Program-made: the position numbers and the translations under genes | The notes under the pieces: model-generated | Database searches by the model: none | Told to the model about the DNA's origin: nothing | The model's input: only the letters and a program-made list of their open reading frames with translations | Origin: a virus | Virus record (IMG/VR): IMGVR_UViG_3300044673_000143 | Location: 1-56,488 of that record | Strand: one strand, 5' to 3' | DNA length: 56,488 bases | In this document: positions 21,870 through 55,527 of the stretch, piece by piece | How positions within the stretch are numbered: position 1 is the first letter of the stretch | How the letters are laid out: every line of letters begins with the position of its first letter

Positions 21870-24716
21870 TCACGTTCCCACGTCGTTCACGTAGCAACTG
21901 CCGAAGGGCAATGTAAATCGGTTCAGGGTTTCCCCGAATCGGGTTTCCGCCTCGATCAGCCAGTTCCCGATCGTGTCGAAAGTTATCCCCACGATCCGGG
22001 CGATCGTGCGGGTTGGAATAATTTCGCCCCCCGCGTCGGCCGGTTCCGCGGTTCGGATCAAAACTTCCTGCCGCTCGTAATCGGGTAGTGCGTCAATATG
22101 GGTTCCGTCCGCGCTGTAAACCGAGGGGAGTTCTTCAGCGCTGACTCCTGATTCCTGACTCCTGAATTCTGACTCCTGACCACTAGACTCGATAATAATT
22201 TCCTCTTCCTCGAATACCGTTTCCTCTACGGCGATCGCCGTTGGCTCTAGGTAGTGCAGTGTTTTTCCCTCTAACCGTCCGTGTCCGGCCTTCTGTAATT
22301 GTTCGAGTAGTTCGAGGGCGAGAGCGGAATTCATTTTCTGTCCGTCGATCTTGCGGGACTGAAATTTTTGATGGATCTCGCGGGTCGTGATCTTGCCCGC
22401 CGTTCTCACGAGATCCCATATTTCATGTAGGATTCCCTGAATCGGGTTCTGGTCGTCGCCGCCGGTAATCCCCTGAATGGCGAGAAATTGATTGATATAG
22501 AAGTCGGTCACGGCGGCCGCCTTAGCCGCGGTCTGCACGGGAATTCGGTAGAGGTCGGTATGTTCGGGATCGTAGATCCAGTTCAATAGATGGATCGAGA
22601 GCGCGAACCGTAAAAACATTTTCATCTGCTTCCCGACATACGCGGACAGCGAGGGATTTTTCGAGCGGTTCAACTTGACGAGATTGTTATAGCGATAGTT
22701 GAGATCCCAAGCGAAATTCTCGCCCTTCTCGGTGAACCAAAGATCGTTGCGCTCTACCCCGTTCTCCCCGACCTCTAGATCGATACCGTTCACCCGATTG
22801 AACGCGTCTAGGATTAGGGACTCGATCGAGTTCATGTCCATCGGCGGGCGACCGGGAACGGGATCGAGTGGTTCGTTAATCAGGAAGTGAAACCGGGAAA
22901 CTAGCCCGTCAACGTCATCGGAAAGATCGAGGTATTTCTGCAATTTCCCGATCTGTATCCCCCCGAGAACGTTGAGGGTTTGACCGTTCAAGGTATAACG
23001 GTTCTCGCGGTTCACCCGGTCAAAAGTAAACTGCAAGGGATCGTTCCACGCGGATAATAGCCTTTGTCGATCGCTACCTTTCCCGCCCGATTTGTACTGG
23101 TTCATCCCGTCGAATAATCCGGTCAGTTCGTCGGCGAGCCATACCGCGCCCTGCCATCGGGATTGTAGGGAGGAGGTTTTGAGAATCGCGTCTAGCGTTC
23201 CCTCGTCGTACACCCACCGTTTCGCCCGGCAGTGTTCCCGCTCGTAGAGGCGCGGGTTAACATCGGCGTTGGTCATGTTCTCGCGCCGTTCGTCGCGGGT
23301 CATTTCCGCCCATTCCGCTTTTAATTGTTCGAGGCGATCGTACTCGCGATCGATCCGATCCTGTTCGATCAGGTCGCGCTCTTTGAGAACACGGTAGATC
23401 TGTTTTTGGGTCGTGGTTTTCCCGCCGCTCGGATAATCTACGTCGGCCATGTAAAAGATCGGGAATTCTTTCCAACACTCGGAAGAGTTCCGCGACGTCC
23501 TCATATTAATCGCGAACCGGGAACCGAGGATCGCGCCCATGACCGGCCAGAGCGAATGAAGTAGCCGGATCGACGGTTGGCGGATCGTGTTAGCCCGAGA
23601 TTCTAGTGCCTCCGCGAGTTTCGGCGGGAGGATCTTGTGTATATCGAGTTCTTTCTGCCGGTAGTGGCTGTTCTTGAGGAAATCCCCGATCGCCGCGTCG
23701 ATCCGATCCGACTCTTCTAGTTCCCGTTCCCTCGCTCTCTTCAGTTCGCGGATGTCGTTCGGTGTTTTACCCGAGGCTTTCGCCCACCCGTGGATCTTCG
23801 CTTCCCATTGGGTGCGGGTTAGGCGTTGCTCGATCGCCGCGTCGATCGCCGCGATGATTTCCTCGATCGTCAATAAATTTTCTTCCGCGGGCTTCACGGG
23901 TTCCCTGACGCGGATCTCTTTCGGGGCATCGACAACGGCCGCTAGAATTTCCTCTTTCGAGATTTTCTTTTCCTCGATCCAGTCGATAATATCGCAACCC
24001 CCGGACTCGGGCAGATGGTTCCAGAGAACGGAATCGGGATAGGCGTACAAGAAACGCGCGTCGGGAAAATCTCGATAGATTCGGGCAACGTGCTTCACTC
24101 CCGGATTATCGCGATCCGGGCAGAGAATTAATTTCGCCCCTTTCAAAAATTCCGAGTGCGATTCTTGCCACTTGCCCGCCCCCCCGAGGCTACAGGTAGC
24201 GACAAACCCCATCGCCTCTAATTTCTCTACCTTGTTCTCTCCCTCGACCACGAGGATCGGGGTTCCCGCGGCGATCGCTTTCCCGAGTCTATCGGCGCGG
24301 TACAGGGGGATCTCGTTATATTCAATACCCTGTAGGTTCCAGATCCAAGTTTTCCCGCCGTCTTTCGAGTGTTGCTGTCTGCAATCCTTTTTCCAGTTCG
24401 CGCCCTCTCGGTAATCCTTGCGGTACACCCGGACGATCGTGCCGTCCCGTAGCGGGGGATAGGCGTAGTGGGTAGTTTTCTCTTTTTTAAATTCTGAAAA
24501 TTTCTTGTCGCGCTTGAGATAGTAGATCGGCTCGCCCGTGCCAGTGGACTTTTTCGATCGCTCCCATCCATCGCCCGGATCGGCTCCCCGTCTACACACC
24601 GAGAGCAGATTTCCCTCGTCCGAGGTATAGCCGAAACAGTAATTAGTCTCGTTCCGGTTCCCGCAATGGGGGCAGGGTTGCAATTTGACGCGGTTCTGTG
24701 TTAGTATTGAGGTCAT
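21870..24716 (-). CDS. primase-helicase with TOPRIM and DUF3987 domains
   Basis: A 948-residue replication protein. The N-terminus has a zinc ribbon (Cys15, Cys18, Cys27, Cys41). A TOPRIM domain follows (V-V-E-G-E-N-K near 160, then L-I-L-C-P-D-R-D-N-P-G near 210). The large central region matches the DUF3987 ATPase family of phage primases, with P-S-G-G-K-T-T as a P-loop-like motif. The C-terminus has a winged-helix-like segment and an acidic linker (E-E-T-V-F-E-E-E-E). It likely primes and unwinds at the phage origin. I use ATG 24716. A GTG at 24758 would add 14 residues but lies in a hairpin. Neither start has a good ribosome site. Confidence 0.8.
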   Translation of the reverse strand: MTSILTQNRVKLQPCPHCGNRNETNYCFGYTSDEGNLLSVCRRGADPGDGWERSKKSTGTGEPIYYLKRDKKFSEFKKEKTTHYAYPPLRDGTIVRVYRKDYREGANWKKDCRQQHSKDGGKTWIWNLQGIEYNEIPLYRADRLGKAIAAGTPILVVEGENKVEKLEAMGFVATCSLGGAGKWQESHSEFLKGAKLILCPDRDNPGVKHVARIYRDFPDARFLYAYPDSVLWNHLPESGGCDIIDWIEEKKISKEEILAAVVDAPKEIRVREPVKPAEENLLTIEEIIAAIDAAIEQRLTRTQWEAKIHGWAKASGKTPNDIRELKRARERELEESDRIDAAIGDFLKNSHYRQKELDIHKILPPKLAEALESRANTIRQPSIRLLHSLWPVMGAILGSRFAINMRTSRNSSECWKEFPIFYMADVDYPSGGKTTTQKQIYRVLKERDLIEQDRIDREYDRLEQLKAEWAEMTRDERRENMTNADVNPRLYEREHCRAKRWVYDEGTLDAILKTSSLQSRWQGAVWLADELTGLFDGMNQYKSGGKGSDRQRLLSAWNDPLQFTFDRVNRENRYTLNGQTLNVLGGIQIGKLQKYLDLSDDVDGLVSRFHFLINEPLDPVPGRPPMDMNSIESLILDAFNRVNGIDLEVGENGVERNDLWFTEKGENFAWDLNYRYNNLVKLNRSKNPSLSAYVGKQMKMFLRFALSIHLLNWIYDPEHTDLYRIPVQTAAKAAAVTDFYINQFLAIQGITGGDDQNPIQGILHEIWDLVRTAGKITTREIHQKFQSRKIDGQKMNSALALELLEQLQKAGHGRLEGKTLHYLEPTAIAVEETVFEEEEIIIESSGQESEFRSQESGVSAEELPSVYSADGTHIDALPDYERQEVLIRTAEPADAGGEIIPTRTIARIVGITFDTIGNWLIEAETRFGETLNRFTLPFGSCYVNDVGT

Positions 24717-24747
24717 AAGAACATAAAGTTTTTGATTGGAATTAGAG

Positions 24748-24771
24748 AACTCGCTCACCGCGAGTTTTTTT
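24748..24771 (+). terminator. plus-strand-oriented terminator hairpin
   Basis: AACTCGC-TCACC-GCGAGTT followed by a run of Ts on the plus strand, just upstream of the primase start. On the minus strand no U-tract follows. It could stop transcripts running antisense through the primase gene toward the immunity region, or shape the primase mRNA leader. Confidence 0.55.
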
Positions 24772-25250: not shown

Positions 25251-25874
25251 ATGGCCGTATCGCGCACCGTTACCGACGAGAACGGAAAAACCGTTCCGAG
25301 AAAGCGGGTAAAATCTTCGGCTCTAACCGAACACGGAATCGAACGCCTCGGGAAAACTTTAAAAGAAAAACGCGACGATTTAGGCATGACGCAAGAGGAG
25401 TTCGTGGTCTGGATCGAGCGCGAATCGGATCGCCTCGGAATTCCGGGCGTTCGTCTCTCCGTCGGGGCGATTCAGAATTGGGAATTACCGCGTATCGCGT
25501 CCTGCCCCGACCTCGGGAATATGCGGGTTCTCGCCGCGGTTTTCGGACTCGATACCGATTCTTTCGTTACTTACTTAAACGGCAACTGGAAATCGATTAA
25601 CGAGTTGACGGGCGATCCCGATTATCGGAAAAAGGGAGGTATCGATTTAAGCCCGAACCTAGCCGCGGAGATGTTCCGCAACGCCGACATCCGCGTTAAG
25701 GCTCCCGTTATCGTCGGGGAATTGCAATCGCTTTTCGCCCGTATCGAGGAAATTCAATTCGCGACGACGCGCGAGGTTAGCAAGGAAGAGGTAGAGGGTT
25801 ATTTAACGTCCGCGCCGAAAGAGGTTCAAAAGGAATTCTACCGACTTCTACAAGATCGATTGATCGGCGCGTAG
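25251..25874 (+). CDS. XRE-family repressor
   Basis: A 207-residue regulator on the plus strand, with AGGAG eight bases before the start. A basic N-terminal arm (K-R-V-K-S-S) precedes an HTH_XRE domain (about 30-95: L-G-K-T-L-K-E-K-R-D-D-L-G-M-T-Q-E-E-F ... L-S-V-G-A-I-Q-N-W-E), with a longer than usual insertion between helices. The C-terminal part is helical and Glu/Lys-rich, without the Ser-Lys autoprotease motifs of LexA/CI. It likely maintains lysogeny. It is paired with the integrase and opposes the minus-strand lytic genes. Confidence 0.7.
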   Translation: MAVSRTVTDENGKTVPRKRVKSSALTEHGIERLGKTLKEKRDDLGMTQEEFVVWIERESDRLGIPGVRLSVGAIQNWELPRIASCPDLGNMRVLAAVFGLDTDSFVTYLNGNWKSINELTGDPDYRKKGGIDLSPNLAAEMFRNADIRVKAPVIVGELQSLFARIEEIQFATTREVSKEEVEGYLTSAPKEVQKEFYRLLQDRLIGA

Positions 25875-31506: not shown

Positions 31507-31535
31507 ATCCTATCAATCCTTTCTTGAATTGTCAA
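31507..31535 (-). promoter_or_regulatory. promoter C, TTGACA-17-TAGGAT
   Basis: Minus-strand TTGACA at 31530-31535 and TAGGAT at 31507-31512 with a 17-base spacer, in the TTTACTTGACAATTCAAGAA block shared with promoters A and B. It drives the early operon toward 27.2 kb. Confidence 0.8.
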
Positions 31536-31658: not shown

Positions 31659-31747
31659 TGTTATCCGATGTTAGGGGAGTTAATAACATAGGGAAAGTAT
31701 TGATATATATAGGATCTAACTTTTTGTTATTGTTGTTTCCCCGATCC
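31659..31747 (+). repeat. bipartite palindrome element, copy L1
   Basis: TGTTAT (31659), then the palindrome-like site TGTTAGGGGAGTTAATAACA (31669-31688), 34 bases, TTTGTTAT (31723-31730), ten bases, and CCGATCC (31741-31747). It forms an inverted pair with copy R1 in the same intergenic region. The 31.47-31.94 kb gap has no convincing gene. Confidence 0.8.
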
Positions 31748-31831
31748 TCGACTCTCGTTTTTTCTCTACGGAAATCCTTCATCCTAGCGGACGACCTCGC
31801 TTATCCCCGATCTCGATCTCTTTTTTGTCTA

Positions 31832-31930
31832 GGATCGGGCGAACGTTCATAACAAAAACCTAGAACCCCCTCCCTGTAGACGTTTCGGGGTGTTATGGAC
31901 TCTCTAACACCGGGAGAGGAAAAGATAACA
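31832..31930 (-). repeat. bipartite palindrome element, copy R1 (inverted)
   Basis: Read on the minus strand: TGTTAT (31930-31925), TGTTAGAGAGTCCATAACA (31909-31891), 34 bases, TTTGTTAT (31856-31849), ten bases, CCGATCC (31838-31832). Mirror image of L1 with identical internal spacing. Promoter E begins 12 bases to its right. Confidence 0.8.
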
Positions 31931-31942
31931 GAAACTTTTTAC

Positions 31943-31971
31943 TTGACAACTCCGATCGGGATCGATAAGAT
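31943..31971 (+). promoter_or_regulatory. promoter E, TTGACA-17-TAAGAT, plus strand
   Basis: TTGACA (31943-31948), 17 bases, TAAGAT (31966-31971), again preceded by TTTAC and followed by A. It is the only member of this promoter family on the plus strand and drives the small operon at 32.0-32.5 kb. Confidence 0.75.
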
Positions 31972-35868: not shown

Positions 35869-36040
35869 TATCATTCTTCCGTGTAGAATCCATCGCTACC
35901 GAGTTTCGGTAGACAATGCAGTGATTTCCGTATAGAACCCGATCCCCCCGGCACGAATCGAGAAAAGTCAGCGCGGCCGCCCCCCCGAGAAATACCCCGA
36001 CGATCGCTAGAACCCGCTTTTTCTCCGATAGCTCGCTCAT
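35834..36040 (-). CDS. small membrane or lipoprotein-like protein
   Basis: A 68-residue protein starting in an ATGA overlap with the tape measure stop. A basic N-terminus (S-E-K-K-R) precedes one hydrophobic helix (V-L-A-I-V-G-V-F-L-G-G-A-A-A-L-T-F-L-D-S-C). The helix ends at a cysteine that could be lipidated, although F-L-D-S-C is not a standard lipobox. Two more cysteines sit at the C-terminus. It may act at tail attachment to the cell membrane, or in superinfection exclusion. Unknown. Confidence 0.5.
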   Translation of the reverse strand: MSELSEKKRVLAIVGVFLGGAAALTFLDSCRGDRVLYGNHCIVYRNSVAMDSTRKNDNGEHACYCANR

Positions 36041-39000
36041 CCGAAAAATCTCCTTTTTGTCCGCTCGTTCTGCGCGTTCTCGCGCTCTTTGAGTTGGGTT
36101 AGAGAATACCCCATATCGTTCCGCGATTCTATCGTGATGTTACTGACATTCGTGATCGCGAGAGAGCGATCGGAGGAAGAATTATTCGAGGTCGTGACAT
36201 TATAGCCGGTTCCCCCGACGAATCCCCCGCCGGCGTAATTTTTAACCGGCGCGTTTTTATATTCTAGATAGGATCTGGCCTCGTTCGCGGGGATAACGTA
36301 CTCGTCCTCGTTAGCCACGATCAGCCGGGGATTTCTTCCCCCGCTCATAGACCGCTCGCGCCGGAACGCGGAAACCATATTTTTCTCTACGGGCGCGTCG
36401 CCTCCGATTTTCCCGCCGGAACTAAAGAGGCTAAGTCCCGTTCCGAGGGAATAAGAGGACGCGCCCGTGAAAGATGTCGGGGCGAGCGACGCGAAAGACG
36501 ACGACCCCCCGGTAGCCCCGCCTATGATTCCCGAGACTAAAGCCCCGAGAATTCCCGATCCGAATCCCGATCCGCCCCCGGTCGGGACGGGTGACGCTTT
36601 CCCCCCTCCCCCGAAGATCTGCATTAGTAGTTGATTGGCCGCCATCTCCCCGATCTTCTGTAGGAAGTTGATCAGAACGTTTAGCATCTGTTGCAAGGTA
36701 TCCCGCCCGCCGGTGAACGCGGCCCGTAACAGATCCCCGAACGCCCCTACCGCGGGATTAGCCTCGATAAACGCGGACGCGAGATCGGCCTGTTGCATTT
36801 TATCGAGCGCGGCCGACATCTCCCCGAGTTTTTGCGGGGAAAGCGATCCCTCTTCCGCGTACCGCTTGAGTTCGAGGCGACGGCGCGCGAAGTCCGCTTC
36901 TATCCGGAGTTTTCGGGATTCCCCGGTATTGAACAGGTTCCCGAGGGGGTTCATCCGGTTACTCGCGTCGATACCGTCGGCGATCAGATTGTTGTAGCGT
37001 TCGAGAGCCGTCACCCGTTCTTCCTCGATCGCTCGGGTAGCGGCCGCGTCGCCCCGGATCTGCCCGTACTTGGCGAGTTGATCGTCGAGGGCTTTATAGC
37101 CTTCTAGGATAGCTAGATTCCGCTTGTTCTCCGCGGCGAGGGCGTTGAAAGCGTCATCGTTGCCGGTGTCTTTCAGTAGCCGCGCCCGCGTTTCTTCCGA
37201 GTTTTTAGCGAAACTATCGGTAAGTTGTCCGAGCGATCGGATCTGTGACTGGATACCCTCGCGCTGTTTCTCGATCTCGCGGTTCCCGTTGCGACGGGTC
37301 TGCTCGACTCTTTCCGAGAAAGTTAGATACCCTTTCGAGGAAAGCATTAGATCGGAGGAACTATCGCCCGTGTCCCTCAGTCCGATCTCGGCTTGAATCC
37401 GACTCTCTCGCGTCTGTAAGATCAATCCCGCGATCCGATCGAGGTTTTCCCGTCTCGCCCGTTCGAGCTTGAGTAAGTTTTCGGCCTTCTGATTCTCTAG
37501 CGTTCGTTCCCGGTTAATGCGGATCTGCGTGTCGAGTTCCCGCGCCCGATCGTAGTCGAACGAGGGCAGTGGGGCGAGCGGGATATTCGCCATCGGTTGA
37601 CCCGATAACGCTCCCGAGTATTTCGGAACGTTGCCCGCGTTGTAGTTCGCCCGTTCCTCGGGTGTAAGGGGCTGTAGATTCGGGTTGAGAACGGTGCGGG
37701 CGAATCCCTCCCAATTTTTATAAAGTCCCGAGCGCATCAGAAGACGATCGAATTCCGCCGATCCCGAGGTCTGAACCTGTTGCACTACCGAGGGATGTTG
37801 AATATTATCGGCGTTGACCGTCTCCCGGTACGTGCGGGTTTTCGGATCGTAGGTAGGCGAGGGATCGTATTTATAGATCTGTCCGTTGCCGTAGTCGATG
37901 TAATCCCCGCGCTGTAATGTTCGGGGATTGTTCGGGGTTCCCTGCCGCGTCGCCTCGGACTTCATCGCCCCGGCGTTACCCGCGCCCCCGATCGCCGGTG
38001 CTATTTTCGGGGATTTCCCGCCGGCGATCTCTCCCGATCGGGCGAGGAGTTTCTTGGAATTCTCCAGAATTCCCGCCCATATCTCGTTAAGCGACTTAAA
38101 TGTTAACTGCTGACGCTCGATCTCTTTAGCTATCTGTACCTGTTGCGTCCAGAAATCCCGTAGCTGTTTGAGGCGATTCCGTTCCGCGTCGTAGATCTGC
38201 TCTTGCAGATCCCGCAACTGTCGGGCGAACTGGATCGATTGATCTTGAATATCGAGCGGTTTTGTCCGCAATCCGTCCGCCTCTCCCTGAATCGACGCGA
38301 TTTCATCCCGGTACTGTAGGATTAGCTCGTCTATCTGTTTCTGTAGGGAATTCACGCCGGGGGTTCTACTCCCTAGCATCGATACCCGTAAACGTTGCCC
38401 CTCTAGGCTACGCTGACTCGCCCGAAATTCGTTCTCGGACTCGATAAGCGACCGCTGTAACCCGCGGATCATATCCCCGTAGGCTTCCCGGAATCCCCGC
38501 ACCTCGCGGGACGATTGAATCTGGAAATCCTCGATCGATACCCTCAGATCGACTATCTGTTTTTGAAGGTTCGTGTAGTAATCCACGAGATCGAAAGACT
38601 GATCCCGTAGGGATAGTTTCGCTTGCTCGATCTGAAGTTGGATTCGGGCGATATTCGCTTTAATTTCGAGGGGATCGCCCTTGAGTGTCCCATTAAGCTT
38701 CGATTGCTCGAACGCGAGTTGTTTGTAAAGTTTTCCGAGTTCGATCAGTGTTTGGTCGCGGGCGAAAGTCTTGACCTGACTCGATACGGTTCGGGATGTT
38801 AGCCCGATTAATTTGTTTGTCGCCTCGATCTCGATCGCCGTGGTCGCGTAGAATTCGGCGAGGTCGTTCTGCTGATCCCGTAGCGATAATCTCGTCCGGG
38901 CGATATTCGCTTTAATCCGGGCGATATTGGATTTAATCGGGAGGGGATCATCGACGTTAGCCGCGAGCCGTTCCTGCTCGATCGCCAGTTGCTTGTAAAG

Positions 39001-42000
39001 TTCTTCTAGGGATAGCCGCGTCTCGGACGATTGAAACGAGCGGAGTTTTCCGGTCGGGGTAGAGGAATAGAGTTTTTCCTGTTTCCCGGCGATAAGAACC
39101 TCGTTCCCCGCCTGTTTCTCGTTTATCTGGCGACGCTTCCGCTCGGTAATAATTTCCCGGTTGATCGCCTGAATCTCTTTTTCCGAGGATAGAATATCCT
39201 GTCGGGTAGAGACGTACCGTTTCGCCATCTCTAGGATATTTTTTAGCGCGGCGTTCGATTCGAGATCTCCCGAAAACTCGTCCATGACATCCTCGATCAT
39301 TTTCGGGGAGAGGAGGTTTTTCGCGATCGCCTCGGAAAAACTGCCAACCCCGAGCCGTTCGAGGTCTTTGCCGAAATAAGTGGAGAGGGTTTTATCGGCC
39401 GCTTCGGTGATGCGGGTATTGAGTTTTGCCCCCGTTTCCGTCGCGGTTGTCTGTAGCGAGGCGATTTTCTCTTTTGCCGTCTGTAGCGATTCCTCCCGCA
39501 CCCTGACGTTAAATTCGTACTCGTTAAGCTGTCCCGCGGCGAATCCCTTCTCGTTGCCGATCTGCCGATTCAGGGATTTTCGAGCGTTAATAAAGTCTCG
39601 ATTTTCTTGAGCGTTAAGGGTTCTTTTAAAACCGAACTGAAGTTTTTTGTACTGCTTTTCTTGATCCTTGAGTATATTGAGATAATTCTGCTGTTCGGCT
39701 TTGAGTTGGGCGATTACGGCTTTAAGTTTTGTCGATTTGTCCGTGTATTCGTCTACGGAAACATTGCCTTTTTGATAAGACTCTTCCAGTTTCGCGAGCG
39801 AGCTTTCGTAAGCTTGCAGATCCGCGGCAATACGGGACCCTAGAGAACCGAAGCGTTTATCGATCGCTTCCTGTTCCTGTTTCATCAGTTCTTGTTCGAC
39901 GGTATTCGCCCGCGCCACTCCCGCGGAATCCCCTTTCCCCGCGGCGATCGCCCGTTCCGCGCGAACCTGAGCGAGCTTGTTCCGAAGACCTTGCAGGGAA
40001 TCGATAAATTTATCGATCCCGGTTACATCGGAAAGTTGATCCCTGTATCCCTTTAGGACGGTTTCGCCTTCTTTTAGGGTGTCGTTAATATTCCGAATAT
40101 CCTTGCTCGTTCCGTAGCTATCGAATCCGACTTTTCCCGCTTCCCGGAACGGACTCCACGTAAAGAGCGCGACCGTTTTATCCCACCAGTTCCCCTCGGA
40201 TAGATCTTTTTTGGTTTGTTCCGGCGTGAAAACTTTTTCTAGGAAATTTTGCCGGTTAGATTCGGGCTTGATTTTCCCGAGATCTTCTAATACTTTTTTC
40301 GATTCTTTGATCGTCTGTAGATTGTTACGAAGATCCTCGCTCCCCGCGTTCCAGATCGCGAAGAATAGTTGTAATCCCGCGGTCACGGCGAGAGGGATCG
40401 CCATTACCGAAATAGCCGAATTAAAAACTACCCCCGTCGCTTTCGCTGTCGCTGACAACATTTGCATCCGCGTGGCGGTTTCTCCGGCGCGTACTCCAGT
40501 AGTAAAAAGAGCGGCATTGTACGAAGAAAGGACAAGCTGTCCGAGTCGCGTGGCGGCAATAAATTGTAGGACGGATTTTGTGACTAACCCGATCGTGACG
40601 TTAAGCGCGGCTCTCGCGACAATTAACAAGGCGTCGAGGTTGTCGTTTACCCCCCCTAGCGCGACGTTCAGCAGTTGTAGAGCGGGATAGGCTACCGCGC
40701 CGATCTTCTCCCCGACTCCCATCGATAACTGTTCGAGATTATTCTGATAGCGGTTAATTTCCGCCTGTAGGGTTTTCCCAGATTCCCCGAGTCCCCCCGC
40801 GCTCATCCGCTCGTATTCGGCCGATAACCGGGGGATCACGTCTTGCGATAACAATTGTCCCGCGGACGCTTGCCGGTAGAATTCGGCGGTGGTTAGTCCC
40901 ATCGCTCGGGCGGCGACGATCAGCGCGTCGTAAAGTCCCCCGGACTCGGTTAACTGTTGGGTGAATTCTTCCACCGACAGAACGGAGCGGGAGGCCATCT
41001 GATTGATCGCCCGGAATGTCTCGGTCTGTTGTTGCGGGTTGGTATTGCGCACCGCGAGAGCCGATTGAAATCCCCGGTAGATAGAATCGCCCTGAGCCTC
41101 TAGCGGGGTGTCGGTAGTGACGATCCGGAATTGCGCGTACTGTTTCACGCTCTCTTTGAACGAGATACCGAGTTCGTTAGCCCGATCCCGCAACTGTCCG
41201 ATCGCCTCGTCCGCGTTGTCTACCCCGGCGACATCGAGGTTAACCTTGATTCTCTGTAGCTCGACTAGAGACTGAAGCGAGTTCGTTACCGCTTGCTGTA
41301 CGGTGAAGGGAAGATTTTGAATACCGAAATAAAGCGGCTGTAATAAGAATTCCGCTCCCTTGAGTAGAGCGAATCCCCCGACTACCGCGAGCGCGGCTTT
41401 TCTGAGATTGAACATCCCGCCCGTGGCCGCGTCGAGTTCCTTATCGATCGTCCGTAGTAGTTTACCGGCCGTCGATAGCGAACCTATAAATCCGTCGAGT
41501 TGCGCGACGGCGACGCGGATACCGCTAACGATCCCTCTCGTGAACCCGCTAGAAACTCCCGCTTTCTCGATGCTATCGAGGGTGTTAAATAAATTGTCGC
41601 GTTTTTTGTTCCAATCCCCGAGGATTTCTTCTCGCGTTGTTTTCGGGCGGGCGATAACGGTAGCCCGCTTCATCGCTTGGAAAGCGCGGGGGGAAGTAAA
41701 GGTTCCCGAATCCATCGATCCGAGAACTTCGTCGATAACCTGTAAGCGTTCCCCGCGGTCTAGCCCCATCTCTTTAAGAGCCTGAAGCACCGCTTTTCGG
41801 GCTTCTTTCGACTTCATCCCGACAAAGAAAGTAAAGTCGCTCACCTCTTTATCGAAGCGGGTTTCTAGTCCTAGTCCGAAGCGGATCTGGCGCGCGCCTA
41901 ACGCTAGTCCCTCGTAGAAGAACCGCATCGCTTTCATCGCTTTTTTGGACGGCGACGCGTTCCCGAGTCCCTTGTTCGTCTCGTCCACGATGTCGAGCGC

Positions 42001-45000
42001 GTTCTGGTAGGCGATTTTTTCCGCCTCGTTCGTGGCGACCCCGATCTGTAAACCTTTTTGGAAATTGGACGCGCCGACCTTGCCCGCGGTGAACATCAAG
42101 GTAGACATATCCGCGCCGATAGCGGTAGCGATCGTTCGGAGTTCTCCCTGTTGCTTGAGGAGCGCGACGGATAGCTCGATAAAAATATCCTTACGTTTAC
42201 CGGCGGGCAGGCTCGGATCTTGCCAGAGCTTATAAAGTTCTTGGAACCGCGACATCTGTTGCTTGATCGCGCCGGGTTGCGTCCGCTCTTGAAACATCCC
42301 GTCACGCCCGAGAAGCTTGTCCCAATCGCTCGCGTTCGGGTCTTGTACCCATTCGAGATCCTGTAGCTCGATGCCTTTTTTCTTGGCCAGTTCCCTTGTA
42401 CCGTCCTCGAACGGACGGACTCCCCCGATCTGTCCGTCATAGGTGTGCAACGCGCCTACTGCCGTGAGAAGGAATTTATCCCACAAGATCCCTTCCATGC
42501 CGTAAGTGTCCGAACTAAATTCCTCGTCTCCTGTAGCGATTCGGAATTTCTCGAACATTTTCGGGATGTCGGCCTCGATGAGTCTCCCGAAACGGGACGT
42601 TATCCGCTCGACCATATCGCGCGACATCGGAGCGGAGCTTGCCAGCCCGCTTGCCATCCCGAGACTGTCGCCCGCGTGTAACATCATCCGATCGGGGTTG
42701 AACAAACCCTCTAGGGCTACGGGTTCTCTCCCGCCGTAGTTATGGGTTCCGAAAGCCATCAGCGCGCGCGGTCGGTTTATCCCTCCCCCGGTTCCGATGA
42801 ATTTACCGGCCGCGTCGGGATGCCAGAACCCGTAAATCGGACTGACCCCCTCGGGAGAGTAGTCGGGACGGATAGCGTTCTCGAATCGTTTTCGGAGAGA
42901 GCGATCCTTGTTGCTGTTCGGGTGTAGGGCTTGGTAGCCCGTGTTCATAATCGAGTCGAGGTGTTCCCGTCTCGCGTAGATCAGGAATTTTCCGCCCTGC
43001 TTCTGGTTGAGTTCAAGGCGTTTATTAATATCTCGGAATAGCGCGTCGATCTGACCGATAAAGACTCTCGCCTCTTCCGCGGTTCCTATTTCCAATCCCT
43101 TGATCAGGTTTTTCCCGGATCGCTTTCCTTTCCACGAGGGCGATCGGTTCCCGAGCGCGTCATCGAGATCGTCTATAGCGTTCTCCCCGATCTCGCGGGT
43201 GTTCAGTCTCGCGGAATCTAGCTCGTTATTCGCTCCTTTTGTTAGGTTCCCGATCGAGCGTTGAATATCCCCCTGTAAATTCTCGATATTAATAACGAGG
43301 GCGTTAAGGTTGCGATTGAGTCCCGATGTGTCGAGTTCGGGGTTCGCTCGAACTTTAGCGATCTCGCCCTTGATTTTCTGTAGTTGCCGGTAGTATTCCG
43401 CGAGCTTGCGGGGATCGGGTTCCGCTTCCGCGAGCGAGCCTTTCGCCATTTTACGGACGGTCGCGACCGACTGCCCGATCGTCGTCACGAATCCTTTATC
43501 GATCGGGGAGGCCGCGTAACTCATCCCCGCTAACGCCTCGCGTCCCGCTTTCGTGCGTCCTTTTTCGTTCGTGGCGAGGAGAAGTTTTATTAACGTCTCG
43601 GGCGGGACTTTCGAGATAATCGCCTTCCAGTAATCATCGACCGAGGGCGTTTTTTTACTCCCGCCCGGCAGTACGTTCAATCCCTGATTGCGAGCGATCT
43701 CCCGTAGTCGGTCGCGGGTGTAATATTCCCGCTTGAAAGGGTCAACGCCGGGGGGGAGCGCGGGCAGATTATTCGTGATTCTAGAGAGAGAATCGGTAAG
43801 TTTAGCGAGGGACGCGCCTAGTGCCATCCCTTTCGCTTCTAGTTCGACAAGTTTTTCGGGGGCTAACGCTTTCGGGGCGATCGCTTTTCTGGCCGTCCCG
43901 AATAGGGTTTCTACGGCGAATCCCGTTACTGTCGTCGCGGTAGCGTAAGCGGTTCCCGCGGATTCTCCTTCCACGATCGAGTTTGCAACGCTTTGTATCG
44001 GCGCGATCACCGCGTTAGCTATCTGTTCGGTCGCCATGTTCACGCCCTGAATAATCCCCCGGATAGCGGGGTTCGCGTCGGCGGGAACCGCAATATCTAG
44101 CGCGTCTTTGATATGCGCGGCTAGTTCCTGGACGTATTTATCGCTTCCTGTTTTGTAAAGCTCGTGAAAAACGTTGTATAGCGATTGATAGATCCCGTGA
44201 GCGACATCATCGGGCAATCCCGCGAGGGTCATCGCCCCCAACGCCATCGGCGCGACAACGGGAGCCGCTATATTCTTCGCGGCCATCGCCGCCGGTATTC
44301 TCCCGAGAAAAGCGGATTCTACCTTTCGGGCGGCGATGACGAGCCGATCGAAGATCTGGATCGTCGCGTTCGCCCCCTTCCAGAGCGATTTATCCGAGAG
44401 ATTGAGGGCATTAAAGATCTCGCGCTTGGCCGTCTGTAGCAGTAGACTCGCGGTATCCTCGTTCCCCGCGATGTTGACGATCTCGTTATTGCGGTCGGGG
44501 GTCTGTAGGCGATTGACGGCCATCTCCCGGAGTCTGCCGTCAATGGTGACGGGGGTAGAAACTTTTCGGGCGACGATCTCCGCGTCGATCGAGTCGATCA
44601 GTTTCGAGATACCGCTAACGTAAGCCTCGACAATTTCGGCCGTCTTTCTTTCTAGGGGCGTTTCTAGATTGGCGTAAACCTCTTGTAAGGCCGATTTCAT
44701 GTTCTCGGCCTTGATCTCGAATTTTTTAGCGATCTCGGGATCTTCTAGTGCCGATTGTATTTGTGACGATTTTAGGAGATCGGGGACGCGGGCGAATTCC
44801 TTGCCCCGTTCTGCCGCGAGATTCACGAAATCGAGGATCGCGTTAATACCGTAGCCCGCGGCGGCGAGTTCCCCGAACCCACTCGTATCCTGTCGGTTCG
44901 ATACCTCGTACCGGACGAGACTTTCTAGCAACTTGTCCAAGAATCCCGCGAGGCGTTTGTAGTTCGTTCCTTCCCCGAGGGCTTTTTCTTTGCCGATCCT

Positions 45001-47946
45001 GCCGCTCTTCGCGGTTTTTATATTCTTCCCGAGTTCCGCGATCCGCGAGAATTTCGAGGTGGACAGAAGTTCGGTTAGTTTCTGTAATCCCGCGGGATCT
45101 CCCGCCGCGTACAGCTTTTTCGCCTCTAGAGCGATCTCTAGATATTGCTTCTTGAATATTTCCGCGTCTTTCTCGTACAGCTTGAAAAAAGCGAGTAAGG
45201 CTTTTTCCATCTGTTTCTCTTCGGGTGTATTGAAAGTTTGCTCGCGGTATTTCCCGGACATTTCCGCGTAGGGAGGCTGTCCGTAGGCCGCGGCGATCTT
45301 CGCGGAATCCCAAAGAAGTTTGTAAAAATCTACTTTCGTTCTCCCGTCCTCGCTTTTCTGGAAATAGTTTTTCCCTAGTTTCGAGAGTTTCCCGAGTTCT
45401 TTGAGAAAATCCCGGTACACGGAACGGAATTCGTCGGCATAGCCCCTTACCGGCGGTTCCGTCGCCTTGCCCGCTTTCCATAGTTGGATCAGGCTTCCGA
45501 AATCACCCGCGGGCAAATTTAATTCTTCGGCCGACTTGCGTAGCGCGTCCTCGATCGTGGCGATCGATTCGAGAAAGGGATCGAGCGGCTGAAAGTCCGA
45601 TTCGGGATACGGCGACGGCTTGCCCTGTCTTCGGGCTAATTCGTTGAACGCGTCCCGGATTAGATCCGAGATATTGCGAACGACTAAAGAGGTTTGCCCG
45701 CCCCCGCGTTCCCCGAGTCCGGCCACGTTATCGATCCCGAGTCCGGATCTCAGAACCCCCTCGATCTCCCTAGCGATCTGTCCCTCGAATTGTTTCGCTC
45801 CCTCGCTCCCCGTCGCGCGCGCTAGTTGTCGGGTTTTTCGCAATAGCGTCCCGAGTTCTTTGGTATCGAGAATCCCGCCTATTTTTTTGTTTACGCTTCC
45901 GATCTCTTTGATAATCGCCGCGAGATCGTCGATATAGGCGTTAGCATCTTGCCCGACTTTCAGGGATTTTATTTTCTCGAATACTCCCGTTAGTCGCTTG
46001 GCTTCTTCGGGTCGCATTACCCGGTTATTCAGGAACGAGGAAAGGAGTAGCAGGAATTCAGAAACGGGCTTTCCGAGATCCGCGAGCATTTTCCCGACCT
46101 CGTGATCGTATCCCCATCCGCCGATCACGGTTTGCAGATTATTTTTCGGATTTAATATCCCGCCGGGGAGAGCGATCTCGTTATCGAGTCTCTCGATCTC
46201 GTTCGGTTTCGCCGTTTTTCTGTCCCCGGCGTACAGGGTATCCCCGAAAAATCCTTTCCCGATATGGTCTAGCGTTCCGATATAGGCTTGGAATTTGGCG
46301 TACTCTCCCTTTATCCCGCCACTTGTCGCCGTCATGCCGGCCATCGGAGTACCGATAGCGAATCCCTTGATATTCGAGATCGCTTTTCGTAATTCGGGAA
46401 ACCGTTTCGCTATCTGATTGAGGATAGCGATCGCCTCTTCCACGACGAAGCCGCCCCCCGATGCCCCGGCGAGGGTGATCTTTTTATCGGGGAACATCAT
46501 CGACGCGGATAGTGCTTTCGTGGCCATCCGGATCGAGTCGTCGTTATAGCCCTTCTCGACAGACTGCCGGAGGATCGACTCTACCGGGTGAAACTGTTCG
46601 AGGTTGGCGATGATGTCGTTAACCATCTTCTCGCCAAAAAGGTTAGCGAGCGCGTCTTTCTGTTCTTTGATAAACGGCAGGATCGATCCCCGCAAGATCC
46701 GGTTATACGCGCCCTGTTCTAGATCCTCGATCGATGTCGTGTGATAGGGCGTAATGGTATCTACGAACGCTTTCGGGAAAAGAGCTTGAATTCCCGCGGC
46801 GATCTGATAGGTCGTATCTACATTGGGCTTGCCCCGCTTCGATTTTGTCGGGTCAACGCCGCCCGTCATGAGAACGATATTATCGGACGCGTCGATCTTG
46901 TCCCGAACCGCGTCGTATTCCCGCCCGAAAATTCCCGACTGTTGCCGGGCCATCTCGGAAGAGTCCCGGAGTTGTACCCGCTTACGAACTCGCAGGGGTT
47001 GAGCCGATAGCTTCATGAAAGCCCCGGCCGCTCGGACAAAATCCTCTTTAACCGTTTCCTCGAATCGAGAAACTACTTTTCCCCGCGCTTCCTCGAATAT
47101 TTTTTTATCGGCCGCTTGGCTCTCGGTTAGTTTTGCCCCGGCTTTCAGGATCGAGGGATCGAACTTCGCTTGCGCCATCGCGACGAAAAGATCCTCTAGA
47201 TCCCGGTAAAACCCCGGATCGGTGATGTTATCGAGGAAAGTATCAAAATTCTTTTGAAATAGGCGTTTCGCGTCTTTCAATCCATCGGGGAACCCTAGCA
47301 ACTCCCGAAATCCCGTATCGAGTCCTTTTTTGACCCGATCCACCTTGTCTTTCGTGTAAATGCCGAATTCCCGCCCGATCGCGTCGAAGTCGGTATCGAA
47401 TCCCTTATAAAAACCTTTTCCGGCTTTTACTCCCGCGTAGGCTCCCGCCCCCGTGAAAAATCCCCCGACCGCGTTGCCCACGGTCAGATTAAATAGTTTT
47501 TCGAGGGGATTCCGGGAACGCGGGCTAGAGTTACGAACGGTGACGGATAATCGCTCGATCGCCTTTTCTACCCGATCCTGATACCCCGAGAAGCGATGTT
47601 CGACAACGAGGCGAGAGGGAACCCGTATATCGACGCTGACGCGCTGTAATTCCCGCAACTCCCGATTGAGGCGGATTAGGGAATCGTCTTCCACTCGAAC
47701 GCGGATCGGATTACGTCGGTAGTGCGCGGCGGTTTTATCGAGGTCGTCCCGTTTGAGTTTTAGGTGATCGTTCAGTTCGTAGAGGCGGCGATCGTCAACC
47801 TCTACTTTGATTCTCGCGGTCATGCCGACGCGCTCGACCTGACGTTTCAACGAGGAGATCCGATTCTCCGCTCTCGCGATCTTCCGATCGTAATCGGCGG
47901 TATTTAGCCCTAATCCGATTTCAAGCGTACCGAGCGAGAGCGTCAT
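36037..47946 (-). CDS. giant tape measure protein with embedded enzymatic-like domains
   Basis: A 3969-residue tape measure protein setting tail length. A basic coiled coil (1-130) leads to a globular region. Residues about 350-620 resemble an alpha/beta hydrolase: a G-A-S-G-G nucleophile elbow (Ser496), F-A-I-G-T-P-M-A-G and a candidate Asp/His in G-Y-D-H-E (614-615). Residues about 1650-1890 form another folded insertion (F-L-I-Y-A-R-R-E-H-L ... G-F-W-H-P) that I cannot name. A tape-measure N-terminal-type domain lies at about 2210-2400, near hydrophobic segments at about 2180 and 2450-2530. Long coiled coils with a 90-residue internal repeat (near 2980-3080) and a Gly/Ser-rich C-terminus follow. 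The start overlaps the chaperone stop (ATGA). Confidence 0.85.
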   Translation of the reverse strand: MTLSLGTLEIGLGLNTADYDRKIARAENRISSLKRQVERVGMTARIKVEVDDRRLYELNDHLKLKRDDLDKTAAHYRRNPIRVRVEDDSLIRLNRELRELQRVSVDIRVPSRLVVEHRFSGYQDRVEKAIERLSVTVRNSSPRSRNPLEKLFNLTVGNAVGGFFTGAGAYAGVKAGKGFYKGFDTDFDAIGREFGIYTKDKVDRVKKGLDTGFRELLGFPDGLKDAKRLFQKNFDTFLDNITDPGFYRDLEDLFVAMAQAKFDPSILKAGAKLTESQAADKKIFEEARGKVVSRFEETVKEDFVRAAGAFMKLSAQPLRVRKRVQLRDSSEMARQQSGIFGREYDAVRDKIDASDNIVLMTGGVDPTKSKRGKPNVDTTYQIAAGIQALFPKAFVDTITPYHTTSIEDLEQGAYNRILRGSILPFIKEQKDALANLFGEKMVNDIIANLEQFHPVESILRQSVEKGYNDDSIRMATKALSASMMFPDKKITLAGASGGGFVVEEAIAILNQIAKRFPELRKAISNIKGFAIGTPMAGMTATSGGIKGEYAKFQAYIGTLDHIGKGFFGDTLYAGDRKTAKPNEIERLDNEIALPGGILNPKNNLQTVIGGWGYDHEVGKMLADLGKPVSEFLLLLSSFLNNRVMRPEEAKRLTGVFEKIKSLKVGQDANAYIDDLAAIIKEIGSVNKKIGGILDTKELGTLLRKTRQLARATGSEGAKQFEGQIAREIEGVLRSGLGIDNVAGLGERGGGQTSLVVRNISDLIRDAFNELARRQGKPSPYPESDFQPLDPFLESIATIEDALRKSAEELNLPAGDFGSLIQLWKAGKATEPPVRGYADEFRSVYRDFLKELGKLSKLGKNYFQKSEDGRTKVDFYKLLWDSAKIAAAYGQPPYAEMSGKYREQTFNTPEEKQMEKALLAFFKLYEKDAEIFKKQYLEIALEAKKLYAAGDPAGLQKLTELLSTSKFSRIAELGKNIKTAKSGRIGKEKALGEGTNYKRLAGFLDKLLESLVRYEVSNRQDTSGFGELAAAGYGINAILDFVNLAAERGKEFARVPDLLKSSQIQSALEDPEIAKKFEIKAENMKSALQEVYANLETPLERKTAEIVEAYVSGISKLIDSIDAEIVARKVSTPVTIDGRLREMAVNRLQTPDRNNEIVNIAGNEDTASLLLQTAKREIFNALNLSDKSLWKGANATIQIFDRLVIAARKVESAFLGRIPAAMAAKNIAAPVVAPMALGAMTLAGLPDDVAHGIYQSLYNVFHELYKTGSDKYVQELAAHIKDALDIAVPADANPAIRGIIQGVNMATEQIANAVIAPIQSVANSIVEGESAGTAYATATTVTGFAVETLFGTARKAIAPKALAPEKLVELEAKGMALGASLAKLTDSLSRITNNLPALPPGVDPFKREYYTRDRLREIARNQGLNVLPGGSKKTPSVDDYWKAIISKVPPETLIKLLLATNEKGRTKAGREALAGMSYAASPIDKGFVTTIGQSVATVRKMAKGSLAEAEPDPRKLAEYYRQLQKIKGEIAKVRANPELDTSGLNRNLNALVINIENLQGDIQRSIGNLTKGANNELDSARLNTREIGENAIDDLDDALGNRSPSWKGKRSGKNLIKGLEIGTAEEARVFIGQIDALFRDINKRLELNQKQGGKFLIYARREHLDSIMNTGYQALHPNSNKDRSLRKRFENAIRPDYSPEGVSPIYGFWHPDAAGKFIGTGGGINRPRALMAFGTHNYGGREPVALEGLFNPDRMMLHAGDSLGMASGLASSAPMSRDMVERITSRFGRLIEADIPKMFEKFRIATGDEEFSSDTYGMEGILWDKFLLTAVGALHTYDGQIGGVRPFEDGTRELAKKKGIELQDLEWVQDPNASDWDKLLGRDGMFQERTQPGAIKQQMSRFQELYKLWQDPSLPAGKRKDIFIELSVALLKQQGELRTIATAIGADMSTLMFTAGKVGASNFQKGLQIGVATNEAEKIAYQNALDIVDETNKGLGNASPSKKAMKAMRFFYEGLALGARQIRFGLGLETRFDKEVSDFTFFVGMKSKEARKAVLQALKEMGLDRGERLQVIDEVLGSMDSGTFTSPRAFQAMKRATVIARPKTTREEILGDWNKKRDNLFNTLDSIEKAGVSSGFTRGIVSGIRVAVAQLDGFIGSLSTAGKLLRTIDKELDAATGGMFNLRKAALAVVGGFALLKGAEFLLQPLYFGIQNLPFTVQQAVTNSLQSLVELQRIKVNLDVAGVDNADEAIGQLRDRANELGISFKESVKQYAQFRIVTTDTPLEAQGDSIYRGFQSALAVRNTNPQQQTETFRAINQMASRSVLSVEEFTQQLTESGGLYDALIVAARAMGLTTAEFYRQASAGQLLSQDVIPRLSAEYERMSAGGLGESGKTLQAEINRYQNNLEQLSMGVGEKIGAVAYPALQLLNVALGGVNDNLDALLIVARAALNVTIGLVTKSVLQFIAATRLGQLVLSSYNAALFTTGVRAGETATRMQMLSATAKATGVVFNSAISVMAIPLAVTAGLQLFFAIWNAGSEDLRNNLQTIKESKKVLEDLGKIKPESNRQNFLEKVFTPEQTKKDLSEGNWWDKTVALFTWSPFREAGKVGFDSYGTSKDIRNINDTLKEGETVLKGYRDQLSDVTGIDKFIDSLQGLRNKLAQVRAERAIAAGKGDSAGVARANTVEQELMKQEQEAIDKRFGSLGSRIAADLQAYESSLAKLEESYQKGNVSVDEYTDKSTKLKAVIAQLKAEQQNYLNILKDQEKQYKKLQFGFKRTLNAQENRDFINARKSLNRQIGNEKGFAAGQLNEYEFNVRVREESLQTAKEKIASLQTTATETGAKLNTRITEAADKTLSTYFGKDLERLGVGSFSEAIAKNLLSPKMIEDVMDEFSGDLESNAALKNILEMAKRYVSTRQDILSSEKEIQAINREIITERKRRQINEKQAGNEVLIAGKQEKLYSSTPTGKLRSFQSSETRLSLEELYKQLAIEQERLAANVDDPLPIKSNIARIKANIARTRLSLRDQQNDLAEFYATTAIEIEATNKLIGLTSRTVSSQVKTFARDQTLIELGKLYKQLAFEQSKLNGTLKGDPLEIKANIARIQLQIEQAKLSLRDQSFDLVDYYTNLQKQIVDLRVSIEDFQIQSSREVRGFREAYGDMIRGLQRSLIESENEFRASQRSLEGQRLRVSMLGSRTPGVNSLQKQIDELILQYRDEIASIQGEADGLRTKPLDIQDQSIQFARQLRDLQEQIYDAERNRLKQLRDFWTQQVQIAKEIERQQLTFKSLNEIWAGILENSKKLLARSGEIAGGKSPKIAPAIGGAGNAGAMKSEATRQGTPNNPRTLQRGDYIDYGNGQIYKYDPSPTYDPKTRTYRETVNADNIQHPSVVQQVQTSGSAEFDRLLMRSGLYKNWEGFARTVLNPNLQPLTPEERANYNAGNVPKYSGALSGQPMANIPLAPLPSFDYDRARELDTQIRINRERTLENQKAENLLKLERARRENLDRIAGLILQTRESRIQAEIGLRDTGDSSSDLMLSSKGYLTFSERVEQTRRNGNREIEKQREGIQSQIRSLGQLTDSFAKNSEETRARLLKDTGNDDAFNALAAENKRNLAILEGYKALDDQLAKYGQIRGDAAATRAIEEERVTALERYNNLIADGIDASNRMNPLGNLFNTGESRKLRIEADFARRRLELKRYAEEGSLSPQKLGEMSAALDKMQQADLASAFIEANPAVGAFGDLLRAAFTGGRDTLQQMLNVLINFLQKIGEMAANQLLMQIFGGGGKASPVPTGGGSGFGSGILGALVSGIIGGATGGSSSFASLAPTSFTGASSYSLGTGLSLFSSGGKIGGDAPVEKNMVSAFRRERSMSGGRNPRLIVANEDEYVIPANEARSYLEYKNAPVKNYAGGGFVGGTGYNVTTSNNSSSDRSLAITNVSNITIESRNDMGYSLTQLKERENAQNERTKRRFFG

Positions 47947-51899: not shown

Positions 51900-51921
51900 C
51901 GTTTTTACTCCTATTTGTTTT

Positions 51922-52128
51922 TTATTTCCGAAAGTCAAGACACAAGATCCCTCGGGGATCGATCGTGGCGACGGGTTCCGCGTTATTTTTCCAGATAGAA
52001 TCTAGCATTATTTCCGCGGCCGTCCATTCCCGATCGAGGTCTACCGAGTAAGTTTCTTTTTCGGAGATAAACACGGTTCTACCTATCGGGGTTCCCGCGT
52101 TCGATACGGTTAACGGCTGAGTGTTCAT
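51922..52128 (-). CDS. hypothetical protein, 68 residues
   Basis: Starts at ATG 52128 with GAGGAA ten bases upstream, overlapping the preceding gene by four bases. Strand-rich (G-R-T-V-F-I-S-E-K-E-T-Y-S-V-D-L-D) with a W-T-A-A-E-I-M-L-D-S-I-W helix. Function unknown. Confidence 0.55.
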   Translation of the reverse strand: MNTQPLTVSNAGTPIGRTVFISEKETYSVDLDREWTAAEIMLDSIWKNNAEPVATIDPRGILCLDFRK

Positions 52129-54755: not shown

Positions 54756-55037
54756 TTATTCATTGGAACCAGTAATAAATACCGGCGTAAAGTTTTCTCG
54801 ATGCACGGGGATAGTCGCAATATGAGAATGAGCGATCGCGTCGAAACAATTGAATTTTTTATTTCCTTTCCCGTTATTCCCCGTGGGGTAGTCTTCCCAA
54901 TAGATCTCGATCCCGTTCTCGCCCACGAACATTTTTAAAAGCGACGGGGCGAGCTTAGGATTATCGGCGTTTAGTACGCCGATAACATAAATCCCCGGCA
55001 TTAGACTTGAAACTTGAAGTTCCTGTACTTCGTTCAT
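54756..55037 (-). CDS. hypothetical protein, 93 residues
   Basis: ATG 55037 with AGAGGAAAC just upstream is preferred over the in-frame ATG at 55070, which would lie at the transcription start of promoter D. Strand-rich N-terminus (L-M-P-G-I-Y-V-I-G-V-L-N-A-D-N-P-K) and an N-G-K-G-N-K-K-F loop. First gene after promoter D. Function unknown. Confidence 0.55.
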   Translation of the reverse strand: MNEVQELQVSSLMPGIYVIGVLNADNPKLAPSLLKMFVGENGIEIYWEDYPTGNNGKGNKKFNCFDAIAHSHIATIPVHRENFTPVFITGSNE

Positions 55038-55073
55038 CTTGTTTCCTCTCGCTTGTTTGTCCTGACACAAACT

Positions 55074-55102
55074 ATCATCCTGTAAATTACTTAAGTTGTC
55101 AA
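55074..55102 (-). promoter_or_regulatory. promoter D, TTGACA with weak -10
   Basis: TTGACA at 55097-55102 on the minus strand within TTTACTTGACAA. Seventeen bases on lies GATGAT (55074-55079), a poor -10. The shared -35 context groups it with promoters A, B, C and E. The weak -10 suggests it may need an activator. Confidence 0.6.
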
Positions 55103-55170: not shown

Positions 55171-55268
55171 TGTTATCGGGATCGGGGGAATGTTAGGGAG
55201 TCAATAACACCCTGAAAGTCTTATCCTGTAACGATTACAGCGATTTGTTATGAATGTTTAGCCGATCC
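55171..55268 (+). repeat. bipartite palindrome element, copy L2
   Basis: TGTTAT (55171), TGTTAGGGAGTCAATAACA (55191-55209), 34 bases, TTTGTTAT (55244-55251), ten bases, CCGATCC (55262-55268). Same architecture as L1. It forms an inverted pair with R2. The region between 55.10 and 55.62 kb has no convincing gene. Confidence 0.8.
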
Positions 55269-55437
55269 GAGGGAAAGAATGGATCGGAACAGGAATAACC
55301 GAACCCGTCCATAAGAACGAACGTAGAGACACGATAAGCGATCGGGATATAGATTCTATCGAGGGAATAGAGAGGATAGGGATAGAAGCTATTTTCGAGG
55401 GGATCGGGAGAGATATACACGGGGAAACGAAGTCACG

Positions 55438-55527
55438 GGAATCGCCCTAACATCAATAACAAAAAGCTAGAACATCGACGTAGAGAGGGATAGAGAATGT
55501 TATTAACTCTCCTAACACTCATTAACA
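55438..55527 (-). repeat. bipartite palindrome element, copy R2 (inverted)
   Basis: Read on the minus strand: TGTTAA (55527-55522), TGTTAGGAGAGTTAATAACA (55517-55498), 34 bases, TTTGTTAT (55463-55456), eleven bases, CGATTCC (55444-55438). The last box is slightly degenerate and one base further away than in the other copies. Confidence 0.75.

Follow-up and report, generated by a model that had tools for sequence, protein, structure and literature searches.

Rigidly spaced inverted arms recur at operon junctions of phages that most likely infect cyanobacteria

What is the role of an inverted, bipartite sequence element that a phage carries at more than one place in its genome, and which protein reads it? 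The segment at 55171–55527 (locus 2) lies in a window of 56,488 nucleotides, the whole stretch of DNA that was analysed, and shares its architecture with a second segment of the same window (locus 1). An earlier note had read the two as paired origins, tethering or looping sites, or duplicated control of two operons. Here we define a conserved cis-acting system, with exact arm and spacer rules, and narrow the candidate proteins to a short list.

No annotation accompanies the window's virus record. Its genes include those for head, tail, lysis and helicase functions, as well as for an integrase, an Xre-type regulator, a DUF3987 primase-helicase and a ParB-like protein. IMG/VR record 3300045051_000365 (G001, 73.2 kb) comes from the same phage: it has one mismatch in 14,485 bases compared and includes a stretch absent from the window. 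The host is most likely a cyanobacterium, because the cyanobacterial octamer GCGATCGC is over-represented (16 copies in the window versus 0.9 expected) and the sole phage relatives of the Gp3-like protein are in Aphanizomenon and Microcystis phages. A pattern scan together with protein searches recovered about 40 related IMG/VR contigs with arms, in two sequence groups. Group 1 comprises the window and G001–G007, which have the window's arm sequence; group 2 comprises G008, G009 and G013–G028, whose ParB-like protein is 60–64% and whose primase is about 55% identical to that of the window. Of the 28 stretches returned by the first DNA pattern, those without a second, facing arm were discarded, and most single-arm matches look like chance. 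Most contigs are uncultured assemblies, where the absence of a gene means its absence from the assembled sequence; gene calls are mechanical open reading frames and promoters are consensus matches. Among named phages (50,697 records) and plasmids (72,556), none had DNA related to the loci, alignments of the ParB-like and DUF3987 proteins found no such prophage in sequenced bacteria, and a paper on freshwater cyanosiphoviruses holds nothing like the element (PMC6157547). The carriers belong to an undescribed family of phages, most likely of freshwater cyanobacteria. Elsewhere in the window, a helicase reading frame (16645–19512, minus strand) includes an intein, recognisable by its Hint domain and LAGLIDADG homing endonuclease, and a single tail-region reading frame of 3,969 residues (36037–47946, minus strand) differs in length among relatives.

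Each window arm reads, from outside to inside, TGTTA-N9/N10-TAACA, 34 bases and TTTGTTAT, with CCGATCC after 10 more bases in three of the four arms. The arms form two inverted pairs, locus 1 at 31669–31909 and locus 2 at 55191–55517 (Table 1). The palindrome pattern TGTTA-N9/10-TAACA occurs exactly four times in the window, every time inside an arm; ATAACA-N34-TTTGTTAT likewise gives four matches in 56,488 bases, all within arms, and none in 100 dinucleotide shuffles. The earlier note had placed 34 bases between palindrome and TTTGTTAT in both arms of locus 2 and a CCGATCC box 10 bases further on in L2, and both are found there. CCGATCC by itself is weak evidence because it is common throughout the window (60 copies versus 25 expected). 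A second GTT stands 9 bp beyond the GTT of TTTGTTAT in L2, and GTT is repeated 9 bp after TTTGTTAT in R2. Extra TGTTA half-sites lie 10, 20, 21 and 10 bases outside the four palindromes, or one or two helical turns.

Table 1 Positions of the arms, promoters and candidate proteins in the window, with weak extra arms in three relatives.
Feature	Position	Strand	Remarks
Arm L2	55191..55268	+	Conserved in relatives; palindrome TGTTAGGGAGTCAATAACA 55191-55209, 34-bp spacer
L2 inner boxes	TTTGTTAT 55244-55251; CCGATCC 55262-55268	+	10 bases between the boxes
Arm R2	55438..55517	-	Palindrome TGTTAGGAGAGTTAATAACA 55517-55498, 34-bp spacer, TTTGTTAT 55463-55456
R2 inner box	55444-55438	-	Degenerate, CGATTCC
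Outboard TGTTAT half-site of L2	55171..55176	+	20 bp (about two helical turns) outside palindrome
Outboard TGTTA half-site of R2	55523..55527	-	10 bp (one helical turn) outside palindrome
Centre of locus 2	55269..55437	none	About 75% identical to G003 centre
Arm L1	31669..31747	+	L-type spacer with TTGATATATATAGG
Arm R1	31832..31909	-	R-type spacer GAAACGTCTACAGGG
Promoter left of locus 2	55074..55102	-	TTGACA-17-GATGAT; outward, sigma-70-type
Promoter left of locus 1	31507..31535	-	TTGACA-17-TAGGAT; outward, toward SSB-like/Gp3-like/ParB-like operon
Promoter right of locus 1	31943..31971	+	TTGACA-17-TAAGAT; outward; -35 33 bp outside R1; lost in G002
RHH-like protein, 73 aa	24868..25089	-	Candidate arm binder
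DUF3987 primase-helicase	21870..24758	-	Primase profiles and PF13148; alternative binder or initiator
ParB/KorB-like protein, 329 aa	27211..28200	-	Matches ParB-like phage family
Xre-type regulator	25251..25874	+	Probable immunity repressor
Weak extra arm	G018 14,019-14,084; G008 39,331-39,394; G019 70,015-70,079		

The same layout is kept in group 2 with a different sequence, the palindrome reading ATTGTWRATAA-NN-TTATYWACAAT and the single site TTTGTTRATNNYGTT. Within either group, one motif seems to underlie both the palindrome half and the single inner site. This half-site motif was set by inspection and by model building on the same arms, and the E-values of models R1 and R2 are therefore not independent for their seed sequences; independence does hold for matches at the third locus and in other genomes. 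A structured RNA was rejected as an explanation of the palindromes, since Rfam gave no match in the window or at the third locus of G001 (one tRNA was found elsewhere in L080) and changes in one half of the palindrome are not compensated by pairing changes in the other (TGTAGATAA opposite TGTTAATAA).

The loci are not a pair, as the earlier note had supposed. The window's phage has three, with two, two and four arms, which is the group-1 pattern, and group-2 genomes (83–90 kb) have four, with two, two, three and four arms. The four-arm third locus (G001 33,188–33,824) lies outside the window, in the stretch that G001 adds, and consists of about 0.7 kb of noncoding DNA between sequences that on inspection resemble hairpins or terminators.

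Within and between arms the spacing is rigid. Among 94 distinct group-2 arms, 93 have a distance of 53 or 54 from palindrome start to inner box, and so do 12 of 14 group-1 arms. In group 1, locus 1 always spans 239–241 bp and locus 2 always 325–327 bp (327 bp in the window, 325 bp in two relatives). The 45 distinct inverted pairs of group 2 span 222–231 bp (36 pairs), 359–361 bp (3) or 407–409 bp (6, at the four-arm locus), and 43 of them join one TATATATA-type arm, with a TTGATATATATAGG spacer, to one CTTAC-type arm. Two-arm modules of this group keep to 222–231 bp even when different loci have centres without detectable similarity. Locus 1 and the three-arm locus of one genome have centres of 90–93 bp that are only 40–66% identical, which is the level of shuffled sequence; the centre of the same locus is 75–95% identical across phages, and the group-2 two-arm loci do share centre sequence (83% in G019). 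The two window loci resemble each other over one 121-bp stretch only, at 70% identity, and neither between them nor between the group-2 centres of locus 1 and the three-arm locus does similarity extend across the whole segment, as a segmental duplication would have it. Recent duplication is excluded because module length is constant while the centres of different loci can differ to shuffle level, and these comparisons indicate that module spacing is under selection.

This bears on several points of the earlier note. Its view of a selected unit rather than a recent simple duplication stands, and when the loci are aligned across related phages, arms and spacing are conserved in both sequence groups. 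The arms are indeed the conserved unit, being kept in relatives, but the centre is not free in length, since the span is constant for each locus. The centres of the two loci do differ in length as it had said, but its figures of about 101 and 169 bases mixed reference points; like for like, 118 versus 204 bases separate the TTTGTTAT boxes and about 84 versus about 170 the CCGATCC-type boxes.

All loci are intergenic and lie at operon junctions. The promoter previously described on one side of locus 2 is there; its -35 is 88 bp outside the L2 palindrome (87–88 bp in relatives) and it reads toward 54756–55070 and a DUF932 gene. Beside the right arm, as also described, the AACTTTTT block common to both loci is present and the TTGACA box is lost, leaving no TTGACA promoter on that side. 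Outward promoters flank locus 1 on both sides, and the -35 of the left one is 133 bp outside L1 in the window, which has an insertion there, and 90 bp in G002 and G004. Across phages, outward promoters consist of TTGACA or TTGACT with a 17–18-base spacer, at offsets of 87–90 bp (loci 1 and 2) and 30–33 bp (other side of locus 1) in group 1 and of 65–67 bp (three-arm locus) and 76–78 bp (locus 1) in group 2. The steps between these offsets are near one helical turn, which is only suggestive because there are so few independent loci. Throughout group 1, loci 1 and 2 stay in place beside the same flanking promoters; in G003 a RecT-like gene replaces the SSB-like/Gp3-like pair beside locus 1 and the element is unchanged. 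The four-arm locus and the group-2 two-arm locus on the Rha side have no outward TTGACA promoter, so operon control cannot explain everything.

We tentatively favour, at somewhat short of an even chance, the reading that at each locus a phage DNA-binding protein, most likely the ribbon-helix-helix (RHH)-like one, assembles into a nucleoprotein complex, folds the inverted pairs and controls or couples the operons at the junction. Each locus would be a pre-formed scaffold. A small phage-encoded protein would recognise the half-site, TTGTTATTGA-like in the window's group and TTGTWRATAA-like in the other, in the palindrome, singly about 54 bp inward with a partial copy 9 bp on, and in the extra copies 10–21 bp outward. 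Because the distance between the facing arms is fixed, bound protein could draw the roughly 230–330 bp of intervening DNA into a single compact complex; the tethering or looping proposed earlier fits this geometry. Such complexes would stand at operon junctions, often with an outward sigma-70-type promoter 65–90 bp away, and might switch or couple early operons, possibly by bringing loci together. Arms, half-sites, geometry, the three or four loci, conservation, promoter placement and gene distribution are observed, whereas protein binding, the binder, the folding and the transcriptional effect are inferred. The fixed geometry, the repeated half-sites, the promoter placement and the indifference to the adjacent gene together support the mechanism. 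The module is probably a control or replication hub.

Both the RHH-like protein and the primase-helicase became candidates because of their distribution. The RHH-like gene (73–82 residues) is in every carrier whose contigs cover the primase region (G002 and G004 are not covered there), directly upstream of the DUF3987 gene, which is itself present in all carriers with that region covered. The RHH-like protein is the best candidate binder, on a weak RHH assignment under Pfam's cut-off (PF01402, E = 0.014). In the RHH fold the N-terminal strand contacts DNA. Here the two distinct group-1 sequences have KFSSYID as this strand and those of group 2 have KVVS[IV]RV; the presumed contact strand is thus invariant or nearly so within each group and differs between groups, as does the half-site, a match that amounts to a single evolutionary contrast. 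In G008, the interval separating the Xre gene from the RHH-like gene showed no strong half-site of this motif, and hence no sign of autoregulation. The binder may instead be a host protein.

By analogy, the element may work like known scattered sites of phages and plasmids, among them SPP1 origins, KorB operators, parS and ParR–parC. The Cluster O mycobacteriophage Corndog has a repeated 17-bp site, TGTTCGG-N3-CCGAACA, mostly away from promoters, and a ParB-like protein (PMC4351075); its 34 sites are simple and about one-third lie inside genes, whereas those described here are few, composite, intergenic and rigidly paired.

Replication offers the main alternative, a close rival that we hold somewhat less likely than the favoured reading, in which the loci serve as origins or initiator sites and the DUF3987 primase-helicase, or a partner of it, recognises them. 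The four-arm locus would probably be the primary origin and the others secondary origins, enhancers or fork-arrest sites. The presence of the primase-helicase in all covered carriers, next to the RHH-like gene, agrees with this, as do the AT-rich TTGATATATATAGG spacer of L-type arms, the size of the noncoding four-arm locus between its terminator-like hairpins, and the SSB-like/Gp3-like or RecT-like gene adjoining locus 1. There is also a precedent in phage SPP1, whose two distant origins have repeats in common as well as an AT-rich region for unwinding; transcription signals enclose one of the two (PMC6316719). Like oriL and oriR of SPP1, where G38P acts, the present loci are distant, share the same repeats and have an AT-rich stretch (PMC6316719, PMC3485210). 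Unlike them, the present candidate origins number three or four, consist of inverted pairs with rigid spans and come with no identified G38P relative. Three or four near-identical origins per genome would be unusual, both arms of window locus 2 are without the AT-rich spacer, and GC skew does not turn at either window locus, a weak test in a phage.

An extension of the assembly-site reading is more speculative and, in our estimate, rather improbable: the three or four dispersed modules would be anchors clustered by one small phage protein of RHH type, which would fold the genome and time replication together with operon expression, without ParA, ParB or a host factor. If true, this would be a phage genome-organising hub of an undescribed kind. 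Should the modules connect distant operons, or replication begin at several of them, the system would provide a simple model of coupled folding, replication and expression.

It is unlikely that the arms are operators or loading sites of the ParB/KorB-like protein, serving KorB-style long-range silencing or partition. Sites of ParB-family proteins are inverted repeats and may be dispersed through a genome (PMC5016525), KorB exerts repression from distant operators (PMC11790492), and the best structural matches of the protein include the KorB-like DNA-binding fold (Spo0J and KorB; 8qa9 with probability 1.0, 1r71 with a TM-score of 0.68 by target; E-values weak). The resemblance to the RK2 KorB operators (OB) extends to scattered palindromes in a compact replicon, a ParB-family gene nearby and distant promoters (PMC11790492), but here the arms are composite, bipartite and inverted in pairs, and the gene, though present in most carriers, is missing from some. 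In G003, G006 and G007 the interval from regulator to locus 1 is without it, as are all 64.5 kb of G003, although this phage keeps three loci; the three phages share their arms exactly with G004, where the gene is present. The helix-turn-helix region of the protein is moreover nearly identical between groups though the half-site differs. The absence of its gene led to the rejection of the ParB-like protein as a universal binder. Its sole plasmid relative, on a Kovacikia minuta megaplasmid, is 30% identical and has no arms nearby.

We give equally little credence to centromere-like sites of a ParA-independent partition system of RHH, ParR or omega style in an extrachromosomal prophage. RHH centromere-binding proteins bind arrays of approximately 10-bp repeats that can enclose a promoter (PMC5016525), and the half-sites are spaced by about 9–11 bp or multiples of a turn. 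The parC of R1 has short-repeat arrays in two halves around a loop, bound by the small RHH protein ParR (PMC5016525); here, in contrast, there are few half-sites per arm, palindromic rather than tandem, at several loci, and no motor was found. The arm also resembles a bent bipartite site such as P1-type parS, with its A- and B-boxes and IHF bend (PMC5016525), but has inverted pairs at several loci, no ParA and no identified IHF site. Searches for a ParA ATPase (PF13614) matched none of 10 genomes and 14 of 14 controls, and those for a tubulin-like protein (PF00091) none of 8 genomes and 13 of 14 controls; the actin-like ParM query (StbA/ParM, PF06406) had no match even in positive controls. 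One site would be enough for partition, and the window has an integrase, so that an extrachromosomal prophage is not required. ParABS- or tubulin-type partition is disfavoured because ParA and a tubulin-like protein were not found and the ParB-like gene is missing from carriers.

Finally, it is very improbable that the pairs bound a small mobile element or mark places of recombination (a mini-transposon, an invertible segment or an attachment site), as suggested by inverted, end-like arms of two types, a reading frame beside an extra R arm in G018 and reading frames between L and R arms in G015, since group-1 loci 1 and 2 hold their positions beside the same promoters, each locus has its own conserved centre, no inverted centre was seen and the integrase gene adjoins no locus.

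Other products of the region were rejected as binders of the arms. The Xre regulator, a probable prophage repressor for which the arms would be operators, has its DNA-binding half replaced in G015 and G018, where just the last 25 residues are recognisable and the arms are normal; in G001 its first 107 residues run into other sequence at the contig start, and the Xre region looks like a swapped immunity region. The helix-turn-helix protein at 29706–30041, the integrase and the product of 28570–29679 have no counterpart in the covered parts of group-2 G008.

Several smaller features accompany the loci. At the four-arm locus (L075:7701–8501, which is G001 33,100–33,900, with equivalents in L077 and L079) there is a second conserved dyad, TGTTACATAAGTAGTATTTGTAATACA, in two copies in G002 and one in G003, which resembles a recombinase core site; the related GTAGTATYTGTARTATATGTAATAC adjoins the group-2 four-arm locus. 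A conserved promoter-like sequence, TTGACA-18-GARAAT (L080:6590–6690 and equivalents), is directed into this locus, and a hairpin with a T run follows within about 50 bases, making a very short transcript possible. Locus 1 of G018 (L172:4051–5208) has a reading frame and a duplicated R arm, and G015 (L186, L187) has reading frames between its L and R arms; their products (MTTILRRVQQFLDSG...) look host-derived and could reflect a real insertion or an assembly chimera. Several group-2 genomes have a weak extra arm about 1 kb from the three-arm locus (Table 1). On the Kovacikia minuta plasmid (L190:1–12000), several copies of one inverted repeat, TTGTGTGTACACGGTAGC, possibly mobile-element ends, lie within 20 kb of the ParB-like relative. 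In G003, a group-1 phage, a truncated arm of group-2 type, ATTGTAGATAGATTGTAGATAGGGTGATCGACAAC...CTTGCAGAG (51,900–51,960, L079), resembles the right side of the group-2 three-arm locus and is a sign of exchange between the groups.
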